Below are positions 1 to 40,193 of a stretch of 40,217 nt of DNA, one piece after another. The stretch covers positions 1 to 40,217 of the forward strand of contig CAIQQH010000032.1 of the NCBI GenBank assembly GCA_903873915.1, given 5' to 3'. The DNA is from an uncultured Flavobacteriia bacterium (GTDB lineage: Bacteria; Bacteroidota; Bacteroidia; Flavobacteriales_D; Crocinitomicaceae). The stretch's first letter is position 1. Each line of letters opens with the position of its first letter. Below the pieces are notes generated by a model. That model ran no database searches, was not told the DNA's origin, and was given only the letters and a program-made list of their open reading frames with translations. The translations under genes were made by a program, and so were the position numbers.

Positions 1-400
1 CCGCAGCGGACACGTGAGGTGCGCAGCAGTCTCGAAGCCACGAGTTACTTGTTTTTCACTTCGAAGTAAGAACCAGTCTTAGAATCTAACATCTTGAAGT
101 CTTTTGTCCCTTGTCCTTCGAAGCTCAACGAGAGAAGAGGTGCCCTTGTAAAATCAACGAAGCTACCTCTAAAAGAGCATAGAACATAGATCAATCAATA
201 TTCTATCAGCGAAGCGGTCTATGTTCCATCAGCGCAGCGGTCCTTTGTCCTTTGTCTATCAATGACGAATTATGCGCTTCGAAGTTCGATCAAGTCTTAA
301 ACTCTTGATGTCTTAACATCTTGAAGTCTTTTGTCCCTTGTCCTTCGAAGCTCAACGAGCGAAGAAGTGTCCTTTGTCCCTTGTCTATTGTCTTAAAATC
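1..400. repeat. Intergenic heptad mosaic 1 (upstream of queA; left edge cut by window)
   Basis: No gene is visible here. A 46-base segment is perfectly duplicated at 87-132 and 314-359. It contains the word TCCTTCGAAGCTCAACGAG, which recurs with one change at 32371 and 32407. Seven-base units run in register: TCCTTTG at 241 and 248; TCTTTTG, TCCCTTG, TCCTTCG at 327-347; TCCTTTG, TCCCTTG, TCTATTG, TCTTAAA at 370-397. One reverse-oriented unit, CGAGTTA, is at 41-47. A near-duplicated word, ATCAGCG(A/C)AGCGGTC, lies around 206-241. The queA promoter starts directly after the block. Confidence 0.85.
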
Positions 401-10258: not shown

Positions 10259-10448
10259 GATAAGGACAAAGGACTTATTGACAAAAGACAAAGGATTTGA
10301 TCGTAACTCGTCATTAGTAACTCGTAACTCTTCATTCGTAACTTCGAGTTCGCTGGGGCGGAGCCACCACCTAATTCGTCATTTGTAACTAGTAACTAGT
10401 AACTAGTAACTTGTCATTCGTAACTCGTCATTAGTAACTAGTAACTCC
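10259..10448. repeat. Intergenic heptad mosaic 2 (between convergent DUF420 and GT4 genes)
   Basis: The left part (10264-10299) carries reverse-oriented units of the TCCTTTG/TCTTTTG dialect, seen as GACAAAGGA words. The right part carries forward units of the TAACTAG/TCATTCG dialect. Six to seven lie in register at 10304-10352. A short GC-rich interruption follows, and then eleven are in register at 10372-10448: TAATTCG, TCATTTG, TAACTAG three times, TAACTTG, TCATTCG, TAACTCG, TCATTAG, TAACTAG, TAACTCC. The next unit would begin TCA, which is the reversed stop codon of the GT4 gene. No hairpin-plus-T-tract terminator is present. Confidence 0.9.
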
Positions 10449-16799: not shown

Positions 16800-16887
16800 G
16801 GAGAGGTGTCCGAGTGGTTGAAGGAGCACGCCTGGAAAGTGTGTATACGCCAAAAGTGTATCGCGGGTTCGAATCCCGCCCTCTCCG
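16800..16887 (+). tRNA. tRNA-Ser (anticodon GGA)
   Basis: An 88-base class II tRNA. The acceptor stem GGAGAGG (16800-16806) pairs with CCTCTCC (16880-16886) and is followed by discriminator G. The anticodon stem 16827-16831/16839-16843 encloses loop CTGGAAA, with anticodon GGA at 16834-16836 (reads UCC and UCU). The long variable arm of serine tRNAs is present (about 16844-16863) and the T loop is TTCGAAT. CCA is not encoded. A heptad-repeat spacer begins about 20 bases downstream. Confidence 0.96.
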
Positions 16888-16907
16888 CAACAAAGTGAAG
16901 GAAGATT

Positions 16908-17226
16908 TTAAAAAGTTACTAGTTACGAGTTACGAATGACGAGTTGGATTCTTCCTCGCTCTTGCTCCCGCTCTCGCTCTCACTTTTGTCCCGACCCTTC
17001 GGGGCTCACTCTGAACTTCCGGGGCCGCTTCGCTGAAAGAATTCAAAATTCCCGAAGGGTTCAGTCGCAGTCATTAAATCCCCAGCAGAGATCAAGTAAT
17101 TTACGCATTGAGATGTCATTCGTGATTCACATCTTTAACTAGTAACTAGTAACTAGTAACTAGTAACTAGTAATTGGTAACTCGTAACTCGTCATTAGTA
17201 ACTCGTCATTCGTAATTAATAACTCA
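16908..17226. repeat. Intergenic heptad mosaic 3 (after tRNA-Ser)
   Basis: The left arm (16912-16946) has five reverse-oriented units in register: AAAGTTA, CTAGTTA, CGAGTTA, CGAATGA, CGAGTTG. The right arm (17136-17226) has thirteen forward units in perfect 7-base register: TAACTAG five times, TAATTGG, TAACTCG twice, TCATTAG, TAACTCG, TCATTCG, TAATTAA, TAACTCA. Bases 16930-16945 are a perfect 16-base inverted complement of 17200-17215. Between the arms are a pyrimidine-rich CTCGCTCTTGCTCCCGCTC stretch and a second inverted pair (ACCCTTCGGG near 16994-17003 with CCCGAAGGGT at 17051-17060). No gene is supported here. Confidence 0.92.
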
Positions 17227-17359: not shown

Positions 17360-18169
17360 ATGAAAAAAGTAATTAGTTCTATCGCAATCGCAGCTGTTAT
17401 GACATTTGGTTTTGCCAATGTTTCTTCTGCTGATTCGACAAATGTTGAAACTACGCCTGCACAAACCGAAGTAACGGATGCAGCAAAAGAAGGAGGCACG
17501 GACTCCAAAGCAACGGCCGATGAAGAGCCGCAACTTGACTTCGTTCAAACGATGAAGCAAAAATTCATCGAGGGGGATCCACTTTGGATGACGCCAGTAT
17601 TGATCTGTATGATCGTAGGTATGGCTTTGGCGATTGAGCGCGTGGTTTATTTGAACCTTGCAACAATCAACACAAACAAATTCTTGGCTCAAGTTGAGGC
17701 AGCATTGAAAAGTGGTGGTGTTGAAGCAGCAAAAGAAGTTTGCCGCAATACACGAGGACCAATTGCTTCTATTTTCTATCAAGGACTTGATCGCGCAAGT
17801 GAGGGAATTGACATGGTTGAGAAATCAGTCGTTTCTTACGGAGGTGTTCAAATGGGTCTTCTTGAGAAAGGTCTTTCTTGGATTTCATTGTTCATCGCTC
17901 TTTCTCCGATGCTCGGGTTCCTTGGAACGGTAATCGGTATGATCCAGGCCTTCGACAAAATCGTTAAGGACGGTCAGGTATCACCAACTACGGTTGCGGA
18001 TGGTATTAAGGTCGCCCTTTTGACAACAGTATTCGGTCTGATTTCGGCGATGGTATTGCAGGTATTCTACAACTACATCTTGTCAAAAATTGATGGTCTT
18101 GTAAATGAAATGGAAGATGCATCGATTTCTTTGATCGATATGCTTTTGAAAAATAAAGCAGTAGCTTAA
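17360..18169 (+). CDS. exbB: MotA/TolQ/ExbB proton channel family protein
   Basis: A 269-residue ExbB/TolQ-type protein, the inner-membrane motor subunit that uses proton flow to energise outer-membrane processes with ExbD. After an N-terminal hydrophobic segment that looks like a signal peptide (MKKVISSIAIAAVMTFGFANVSSA) comes an acidic, Thr-rich linker (residues about 26-58). Then come helix 1 (PVLICMIVGMALAIERVVYL), the cytoplasmic domain, and two helices containing LSWISLFIALSPMLGFLGTVIGMIQAF and KVALLTTVFGLISAMVLQVFYNYI, the conserved MotA/ExbB block. The ATG at 17360 is chosen over an upstream ATG at 17294, which lies inside the promoter. It is the first gene of a four-gene operon. Confidence 0.92.
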   Translation: MKKVISSIAIAAVMTFGFANVSSADSTNVETTPAQTEVTDAAKEGGTDSKATADEEPQLDFVQTMKQKFIEGDPLWMTPVLICMIVGMALAIERVVYLNLATINTNKFLAQVEAALKSGGVEAAKEVCRNTRGPIASIFYQGLDRASEGIDMVEKSVVSYGGVQMGLLEKGLSWISLFIALSPMLGFLGTVIGMIQAFDKIVKDGQVSPTTVADGIKVALLTTVFGLISAMVLQVFYNYILSKIDGLVNEMEDASISLIDMLLKNKAVA

Positions 18170-22210: not shown

Positions 22211-22575
22211 GTTTTGACAAAGGACTTGTGTGTTTAATTGGTGGCTGAGGTTCCGAAGGAAGTCTCGAAGTCACCTCTGATGGACAAAAGACCCACTTCG
22301 CTATAAGACATTAAGACAAAGGACTGCGAGCCAAGAGACAGTTCATACTTCGGTGGATCAGGTTCTCGAAGCCACATTATGTTCATTTTTCCTCGCCGTC
22401 TCAAAGCACTCATCAAAGGTATTCATTCTTAAAGTCTTGATAACTTAAGATCTCGACCACTTTTGTATTTTAGTGCAGCGGTCTCTTGTTTTTTGTTATT
22501 CAGTCCGCCTTTGCGGACGGTTCGATGTCCATTGTCTTTTGTCTTTTGTCTTTCGTCAAAAAGCGCAATAGCGCT
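22211..22575. repeat. Intergenic heptad mosaic 4 (between the hypothetical gene and pth)
   Basis: The left part holds reverse-oriented units of the TCCTTTG/TCTTTTG dialect, seen as GACAAAGGAC near 22216 and 22314 and GGACAAAAGAC near 22282. The right part holds forward units in register at 22528-22555: TCCATTG, TCTTTTG, TCTTTTG, TCTTTCG. Two hairpins are visible: GTCCGC/GCGGAC with a CTTT loop (22503-22518) and AGCGC/GCGCT with an AATA loop (22562-22575). Words shared with mosaic 1 include CTCGAAG(C/T)CAC and GCAGCGGTC. Neither hairpin is followed by a T tract. No gene is supported. Confidence 0.85.
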
Positions 22576-32163: not shown

Positions 32164-32470
32164 TTTTTTAGTTACGAATGACATCTTAAGTCTTAAACAA
32201 CTTGGACTCTGTAGTGAATTTGATGACTGCGTCAATTTGATCCCTTCGGGAATTTTATATTCGTCATCTTTTGAATTCTAGCCTGAACCGAAAATTTTCA
32301 ACTCGGGCTTCGAGTATGCTGCGCACCTCAGCCACCAAATTAGTAACTCGTCACTTTTTGAAGTCCTTTGTCCTTCGAAGCTCAAAGAGCGAAGAAGTAT
32401 CCCTTGTCCTTCGAAGCTCAAAGAGCGAAGAAGTATACTTTGTCTTTTTTATTCGCCGAAGCTTAAAAAG
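32164..32470. repeat. Intergenic heptad mosaic 5 (between the OmpA gene and asnS)
   Basis: The left end has reverse-oriented units (TTAGTTACGAATGAC near 32168-32182). The right part has a forward TTAGTAACTCGTCAC word near 32339-32353 and then TCCTTTG-dialect words. A 36-base unit containing TCCTTCGAAGCTCAAAGAG is tandemly duplicated at 32371 and 32407; mosaic 1 carries the same word. A short open frame across this stretch encodes a Ser/Lys/Glu repeat and is judged spurious. No hairpin-plus-T-tract terminator is seen. Confidence 0.85.
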
Positions 32471-40039: not shown

Positions 40040-40193
40040 AAGATTTTAAGACAAGAGACTTTGAAAAGTTACTAGTTACTAGTTACGAATGACGAGTTGG
40101 ACTCAACTTCGAGAACCGTAAATGTCAGCTTCGGAGTAGACACTTAACTCGTAACTAGTCATTCGTAATTAGTAACTAATCATTTATTACTAC
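40040..40193. repeat. Intergenic heptad mosaic 6 (after the lacI-type gene)
   Basis: The left arm (40065-40099) has five reverse units in register: AAAGTTA, CTAGTTA, CTAGTTA, CGAATGA, CGAGTTG. It differs from the left arm of mosaic 3 at only one position within these units. The right arm (40145-40193) has forward units TAACTCG, TAACTAG, TCATTCG, TAATTAG, TAACTAA, TCATTTA, TTACTAC. The arms share an 11-base inverted complement (GTCATTCGTAA). The core between them is only about 45 bases, compared with about 190 in mosaic 3. The last 24 bases of the window show no clear feature. Confidence 0.9.

Follow-up and report, generated by a model that had tools for sequence, protein, structure and literature searches.

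Degenerate heptamer arrays spread through an uncultured Crocinitomicaceae genome and placed preferentially behind gene 3′ ends in one orientation

Bacteria frequently carry repeats of seven-base units. The window analysed here, a stretch of 40,217 nucleotides from an uncultured Flavobacteriia bacterium of the Crocinitomicaceae (assembly GCA_903873915.1, contig CAIQQH010000032.1), contains such a repeat at positions 17136-17226, and it raises the question of what kind of sequence keeps a period of exactly seven bases while its letters change. Re-reading of these positions in seven-base steps gave 13 units over 91 bases with zero insertions or deletions, all fitting T(A/C)A(C/T)T(A/C/G)(G/A), as the first-pass annotation of the sequence had described; the order is five TAACTAG, TAATTGG, two TAACTCG, TCATTAG, TAACTCG, TCATTCG, TAATTAA and TAACTCA, and the final two units have a terminal A, not G, so that the array edge frays there. 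Tandem Repeats Finder agrees, detecting the array with period 7 (score 94) and period 21 (score 110); on the whole window this program, which is looser than the autocorrelation described below, returned 28 rows, other periods included, one of them a 189-base repeat within an open reading frame (ORF). The reported array is a member of a species-specific, genome-wide family of degenerate heptamers, GTNAYTN, found mostly between genes, and the arrays of this family lie preferentially a few nucleotides behind gene 3′ ends, in one orientation.

A pattern of four consecutive GTNAYTN units had 114 forward and 81 reverse matches in the 2.82 Mb draft genome, 195 in total (the matches overlap, and the number of arrays is therefore lower), whereas the same pattern written backwards, used as a control, gave 0 forward and 1 reverse. 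Autocorrelation (80% over 28 bases) was calculated on 20 array-bearing stretches and the window, together 140.9 kb or about 5% of the genome, picked around arrays; it yielded 22 segments at period 7 and 14 at the harmonic period 14, with zero segments at periods 4-6 and 8-13, and a mononucleotide shuffle gave zero at every period. The excess of period-7 sequence, for which the first-pass annotation had proposed a scan, is large. As listed in the window genome (G000), arrays range from 4 to 24 units. Two further heptamer types occur, TTAATTC/TTCATTT, which at times prolongs an A-type array in register (locus L094), and GTCCTTT/GTCTTTT; the A-strand is defined as that on which an array reads GTNAYTN, the plus strand for the reported array. 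No gene of its own was found accompanying the heptamer family.

The units follow a grammar in which fixed and variable positions alternate. Among 249 units from 34 G000 arrays, T2 is found in 248, A4 in 247, T6 in 243 and G1 in 214, with position 3 mainly A/C, position 5 C/T and position 7 any letter; this near-invariance is partly imposed, since units were accepted with at least three of the four skeleton letters, and one array (L096) was read on the wrong strand. A looser alignment of the period-7 segments, other unit types included, gave 0.87 for T2, 0.88 for A4, 0.88 for T6 and 0.62 for G1, and showed the same alternation, but weaker. Positions 3 and 5 are linked (mutual information 0.151 vs 0.022 shuffled; GTCAC in 7 units), while an apparent dependence of position 3 between neighbouring units was discarded, as it was gone without L091 and the wrong-strand array. 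In other genomes the arrays were found via GTNAYTN itself, so that recurrence of the skeleton there is largely built in and is weak evidence.

The placement of the arrays was missed in the first reading of the sequence. In a strict test on G000 and the congener G008, 17 of the 45 scored arrays lie antisense, at most 15 nt behind a stop codon, against 2.2 expected from random placement within the same spacers (0 of 2000 random placements reach 17), and sense arrays in that position number 0 of 45 against 2.3 expected; from the 73 arrays, 28 had been dropped, 13 overlapping an ORF, 11 at stretch edges and 4 duplicates or orthologues. Beyond the genus, with G159 set aside, 5 of 17 scored arrays are antisense near a stop codon (0.9 expected) and none is sense, in a small sample of 33 arrays of which 16 were dropped. 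Looser rules gave 28 of 58 antisense against 5.1 expected and 2 sense against 4.9. When array junctions at most 45 nt from a called stop were counted in all sampled taxa, 53 of 63 were antisense and 10 sense, a count in which one place stands twice (L173 = L198) and some orthologues are included; four of the ten sense junctions involve ORFs of merely 81-111 aa. G159 was excluded from the strict test, and four of its stretches are included in the looser, the 63-junction and the gene-start and ORF figures for other taxa. Its own arrays near stops (17 antisense vs 5 sense) were dropped as backing for the rule, because in the G159 dialect one strand contains TGA and the opposite strand is an open frame, which biases ORF calling toward the rule.

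Behind the stop codon, the coding strand thus reads KARTKAC. All ten array-abutting proteins tested have a Pfam family: ribosome recycling factor, DapD, AlgH-like, histone-deacetylase-like, GroEL, RecJ, permease, DEAD helicase, M50 peptidase and MauE; for ribosome recycling factor, GroEL, RecJ and the permease the match reaches the profile end or stops at most one position short. With crude ORF calling, none of the 34 G000 arrays lies more than half inside an ORF of at least 90 aa, and several overlap an ORF end. Two other descriptions of the placement were discarded. A rule of purine-rich strands is weak, with mean purine fractions at 3′ ends of 0.55 in G000, 0.58 in G008 and 0.56 outside the genus. 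Islands bounded by terminal inverted repeats, suggested by the inverted pairs 16913/17135 and 40066/40144, were rejected, as gene starts lack an orientation rule; convergent array pairs occur because each gene 3′ end has its own antisense array. The reported array itself is located upstream of a gene, unlike the stop-codon rule, and its inverted sister behind the tRNA fits the 3′-end pattern. The arrays and related features of the window are as follows.

17136..17226, plus strand: reported array, 13 GTNAYTN-type units, its end 133 bp upstream of the MotA/TolQ/ExbB gene, sense
16913..16940, minus strand: sister array, 4 units, inverted with respect to 17136, its start 24 bp behind tRNA-Ser
10303..10344, plus strand: array of 6 units in the convergent spacer between DUF420 and glycosyltransferase genes
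10371..10447, plus strand: array of 11 units, antisense to the minus-strand glycosyltransferase gene and lying 1 nt past its stop codon
40066..40093, minus strand: array of 4 units, antisense, 31 nt behind the stop of a LacI-type regulator gene
40144..40192, plus strand: array of 7 units, inverted partner of 40066
22518..22561, plus strand: related heptamers of another type, GTCTTTT / GTCCATT
240..256, plus strand: related heptamers, GTCCTTT, 2.4 copies
1..48, plus strand: end of one copy of the palindromic element X, 98% over 48 bp
16800..16888, plus strand: tRNA-Ser(GGA), bounding the spacer of the reported array
17360..18169, plus strand: MotA/TolQ/ExbB proton channel gene, downstream of the reported array (Pfam PF01618, E 1.9e-26)

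Rfam gave nothing beyond the tRNA in the window.

Comparison between species revealed that arrays at orthologous sites turn over in whole units and in unit type, whereas the flanking sequence remains similar. Over a 2.5 kb query, G008 is 94% identical to the window genome in one half and 92% in the other, and the reported spacer has 2 mismatches in 131 aligned bases before the array; the array itself measures 96 bases in G000 vs 78 in G008, where unit types absent from G000 occur. The array is absent from this spacer in G016, G004 (assembly split over two contigs there) has runs of two to three units only, and in five more distant congeners the spacer is short and array-free. The difference of 18 bases in G008 is not a multiple of 7 and G016 has no array; selection on length, one of the two causes put forward by the first-pass annotation, is thus not demonstrated. 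The other, a copying process that adds whole units, agrees with the L090 array, where the gaps that separate three species measure exactly 21 and 7. Heptamers are present at L094 in five of five species, differing in length and make-up, and at L211 behind the same stop codon in five of five, where the unit type is not constant (GAGTTAC type in G008, G004 and G016; GAATTAA/GGATGAA type in G000 and G011). Identical units are adjacent in 12.6% of cases vs 13.4% shuffled, or 14.1% vs 12.0% without L091, the most regular array (169 of 1000 shuffles equally high); since adjacent units resemble each other no more than shuffled ones do, the arrays are not explained by a unit being copied again and again next to itself, and the earlier view that single-unit slippage is not the main process stands. 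Unit words common to different arrays exceed shuffles (159 vs 108 for k=2, 18 vs 7.8 for k=3).

Within the genus the pattern was matched in 14 of 25 other genomes and was without a match in 11; the reversed control also matches there, 7 times in G004, 8 in G015 and 5 in G018. In a phylum sample, the pattern occurs in 78 of 395 genomes and the reversed control in about 85 (hand count); as the control matches about as many genomes, low counts mean little, and the idea that the GTNAYTN skeleton is special in the phylum was rejected. Only loads above 100 are specific, reached by five genomes, G000 included, for the true pattern and by none for the control, whose maximum is 69. Rich genomes have empty close relatives, G163 beside G159, and G202 and G086 beside G171 and G194. 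The exact-dialect scan gave 25 stretches: 14 labelled Chitinophaga pinensis, 3 Capnocytophaga, 2 Parabacteroides, 2 Chloroflexi, 2 Ignavibacteria, 1 Bacteroidota and 1 Flavobacteriales. The records labelled C. pinensis do not represent a distant taxon, since 11 of the 14 (HRS-ES5-bin-58) are G008 itself; the remaining three belong to a second assembly, MoE-23oct19-142, one stretch of which has an orthologue in G000 (92-94% over the best-matching parts) and hence comes from a congener. Phage carriage was discarded, as the viral collection contains one contig only with the dialect. On plasmids, a Dolichospermum record has a related array (83% over 59 bp) with GTAATTC units, and a query around a G157 array matched 8 plasmid records, 4 of them Nostoc; for the reported array the plasmid collection gave 1 record, and for a 24-unit array none, although the low-complexity filter may hide some. 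Three places on cyanobacterial plasmids comprise two antisense arrays (9 and about 70 nt behind an annotated stop) and one sense array, too few to be used.

Other repeats occur as well. Element X is palindromic, about 50 bp long and dispersed, with copies inside or beside heptamer arrays where examined; 46 matches were counted in G000, 54 in G008, 40 in G004, 32 in G011 and 29 in G016 (not every candidate scored); G020 has a single match, and the remaining 20 of the 26 congeneric genomes have none. Its fold is within the shuffle range (DNA z -1.4, RNA z -1.0), and it is present also at L105 3341-3400. Each of G000, G008, G016 and G011 has one Y1_Tnp gene (154-158 aa; L146-L149), whose neighbouring genes look the same on inspection; its stop codon is followed at once by heptamers in G016 and G011, and in G000 and G008 a copy of X lies between stop codon and heptamers. 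A second short palindrome, CTTCGAAGCTCAAAGAGCGAAGAAG, and its variants lie between GTCCTTT-type heptamers (window 116-139, 343-367 and 32364-32444; L096, L097 and L103), and a dispersed phrase, TTTGATGCTKCGCAA / TTTGATCCCTKCGGGAA, forms several repeats adjoining heptamers (L094 2600-2900 and orthologues). The 3′ end of tRNA-Ser with the sequence following it is repeated at least once behind the tRNA in G008, G004, G016 and G003, at an estimated distance of about 90-115 bp, a pattern like that of attachment-site repeats or of tandem duplication; in the window genome this sequence is present once (16800-16910; compared loci L061, L087, L088 and L089).

The explanation favoured here, to which belief and doubt are given in equal measure, is that the arrays are mostly tolerated and change by block-wise copying of units at gene 3′ ends. 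Arrays would lengthen, shorten and acquire new letters as whole units are copied in blocks, inside a single array and perhaps from one array to another, in the course of replication or repair; selection would keep them largely out of coding sequence, because 7 is not a multiple of 3 and the dialect units carry stop codons, and would otherwise mostly tolerate them. Such a copying route, with arrays that are nearly neutral and perhaps linked to transcript 3′ ends, explains why the period is constant while the letters vary, why the arrays turn over fast and why they are rare in coding sequence.

Several results weigh against block-wise copying. Neutral copying does not predict that T2, A4 and T6 should hardly vary, and both this skeleton and the single strand are left unexplained; the orientation rule is without a demonstrated cause, and it is absent at gene starts, where 1 sense and 0 antisense arrays at most 15 nt away among the 45 scored arrays correspond to the random level (in the gene-start and ORF tally, where orientations at starts were mixed, L138, from a Flavobacteriales metagenome-assembled genome, was counted with the genus, 1 of 80 arrays, though its array alone matches). 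By another criterion some arrays do lie inside called ORFs, 1 of 39 in G008, 4 of 47 in other taxa and, in the larger G159 sample, 25 of 59. Units two apart are identical in 20.4% of cases vs 13.5% shuffled, an excess coming mainly from L091, a 24-unit array with a higher-order repeat; without it, the figures are 15.7% vs 11.9% (52 of 1000 shuffles). The sharing of words between arrays, recalculated without L091 and tandem duplicated copies, is reached by 1 of 500 shuffles for k=2 and by 33 of 500 for k=3, with zero words for k=4. The last of these points is the fold of the reported array, whose plus-strand RNA has z -2.4, with 1 of 200 shuffles equally stable.

This fold enters also into a different explanation, which is doubtful although it accounts for site and strand better than block-wise copying does, namely that the arrays are functional RNA elements. 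They would act on the mRNA through its stability, termination, ribosome recycling or the binding of a cold-shock or S1-type protein (one to each heptamer), with period and strand selected and the letters drifting. The fixed strand behind stop codons, the L211 site kept in five of five species despite changed letters and unit type, and the location behind genes such as those for ribosome recycling factor and GroEL are consistent with this, and S1, Csp or Csr proteins have been proposed for the TAACTGA repeats (MacGregor 2015, PMC4679880). However, the plus-strand fold is owed largely to the pure TAACTAG stretch and is not shared by the 23-unit L211 array (z -0.5); the minus-strand RNA has z -1.6, and as DNA the array folds at z -1.3 and -1.0 only. 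Moreover, simple consensus scans, which do not cover Bacteroidota-type promoters, detected neither a sigma-70-type promoter nor a terminator-like site at the array, the G016 spacer is empty, and the pattern has no match in 11 of 25 congeneric genomes. An ordinary microsatellite, in which one heptamer multiplies by slippage and then acquires point mutations, is unlikely: some arrays are nearly pure, as with the five TAACTAG units of the reported array, and in most of the genomes studied long simple repeats are most often heptanucleotides (Mrazek 2007, cited in PMC4679880), but variation is concentrated at positions 3, 5 and 7 and almost never touches 2, 4 and 6, a contrast due in part to unit selection and weaker in the looser alignment, and neighbouring units are no more alike than shuffled.

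Two explanations invoke movement of sequences. The arrays could be by-products of a mobile element, being landing sites or ends of a REP-like X moved by a RAYT-type Y1 transposase (repetitive extragenic palindrome, REP; REP-associated tyrosine transposase, RAYT). X copies inside or beside arrays and the single Y1 gene followed by X and heptamers in G000 and G008, or by heptamers only in G016 and G011, agree with this, but Y1 genes were not found in the array-bearing G009 and G004 and are present in the pattern-free G163, G202 and several congeners; the Y1 family occurs in 17 of the 26 congeneric genomes and in 15 of 19 selected ones, and its presence does not agree with array load. In addition, arrays occur without X in G002, G009, G022 and G005, and at L094 X lies inside the heptamers in G008, G011 and G004, whereas G000 and G016 have the array without it; a mobile-element origin is accordingly very unlikely. 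Horizontal import of cyanobacterial heptamers of the short tandemly repeated repetitive (STRR) type, followed by local spread, would fit the same dialect in the Capnocytophaga, Parabacteroides, Chloroflexi and Ignavibacteria records, the Dolichospermum array and the plasmid matches of the G157 query, and transfer was argued for the TAACTGA repeats (PMC4679880). This import is hardly probable: dialects differ between species, sister species often have none, and the viral contig and the plasmid matches of the reported and 24-unit arrays are as few as given above.

A broader possibility, put forward tentatively and itself doubtful, is that some uncharacterised process adds 7-nt units to the 3′ ends of genes, always in the same orientation, and has done so in several phyla with unrelated heptamers. 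If true, the invariants would be period, position and strand, and not sequence (GTNAYTN here, GGGANTN in Xanthomonas), and the long-recognised bacterial preference for heptamers would be tied to transcription 3′ ends, stop codons or ribosome recycling. The cause is testable, since inverting or removing an array should have one effect if a process acts at gene 3′ ends and another if RNA 3′ regions are under selection. Moreover, because units turn over between species that are about 92-94% identical around the reported locus, the arrays are natural records of copying errors.

Among known repeats, the first-pass annotation had considered the STRR heptamers of heterocystous cyanobacteria, reportedly described by Mazel in 1990, as the closest analogue. 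STRR are tandem degenerate heptamers dispersed between genes, and the likeness lies in these features and in the GTAATTC units of the Dolichospermum plasmid; the host differs, being cyanobacterial there and a member of the Bacteroidota here. Small dispersed repeats in cyanobacteria are also said to have been treated by Elhai in 2008.

In architecture the GTNAYTN arrays are closer to the G-rich heptamers of Xanthomonas and Nostoc than to STRR. These comprise GGGAATC or (GGGANTN)n in Xanthomonas, with 186 and 183 mostly intergenic loci in two genomes, and GGGGA(C/T)T in Nostoc 7120; they lie preferentially at most 50 bp from stop codons on one strand, vary widely in length and sequence between close relatives, and have G runs that form quadruplexes in vitro, with four units preferred (Rehm 2015, PMC4692102). 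Tandem period 7 with variable letters at fixed positions, stop-codon proximity and a preferred strand (17 antisense vs 0 sense in 45 arrays) are common to both; in contrast, the opposite-strand placement at start codons described there is not found in GTNAYTN arrays, GGG occurs in 0 of 34 G000 arrays, and lengths range from 4 to 24 units here. One-strand placement at stop codons without G runs therefore indicates that placement of the Xanthomonas/Nostoc type does not need quadruplexes.

The first-pass annotation had known of no equivalent in Bacteroidota, which proved wrong: TAACTGA and mixed heptamer arrays, intergenic and with 7-nt indels between close strains, have been described in Beggiatoaceae, Cyanobacteria and five Bacteroidetes (MacGregor 2015, PMC4679880). 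In register TAACTGA reads ATAACTG, one letter off GTAACTG, which fits GTNAYTN, but ATAACTG accounts for 0 of 249 units here. In the orange Guaymas Beggiatoa the units are nearly uniform and mostly just upstream of start codons, forward, whereas GTNAYTN arrays are mixed, clustered behind stop codons and antisense, with 1 of 45 at most 15 nt from a start. The Helicobacter pylori heptanucleotide GTGATTA (van Belkum, cited in PMC4692102), known here from the citation alone, is an exact fit to GTNAYTN. As 7-nt tandem repeats longer than chance, the arrays belong to the long heptanucleotide simple repeats, and heptamer-derived satellites are mentioned in PMC6749651. With REP and REPIN sequences mobilized by RAYT (PMC3116915, PMC3733652) the likeness is the dispersed intergenic palindrome X, one copy of which lies beside a Y1 gene, and the difference is that the heptamer arrays do not track cognate Y1 genes; as for the palindrome feature of REP, the pure TAACTAG stretch self-folds (plus-strand RNA z -2.4), and the L211 array does not (z -0.5). 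In the open-access literature, to which the search was confined and parts of which are represented here, no recognisable description of a GTNAYTN-type family in Bacteroidota with mixed units and such placement was found. The GTNAYTN arrays are a real, genome-wide variety of a known, unexplained kind of bacterial repeat.
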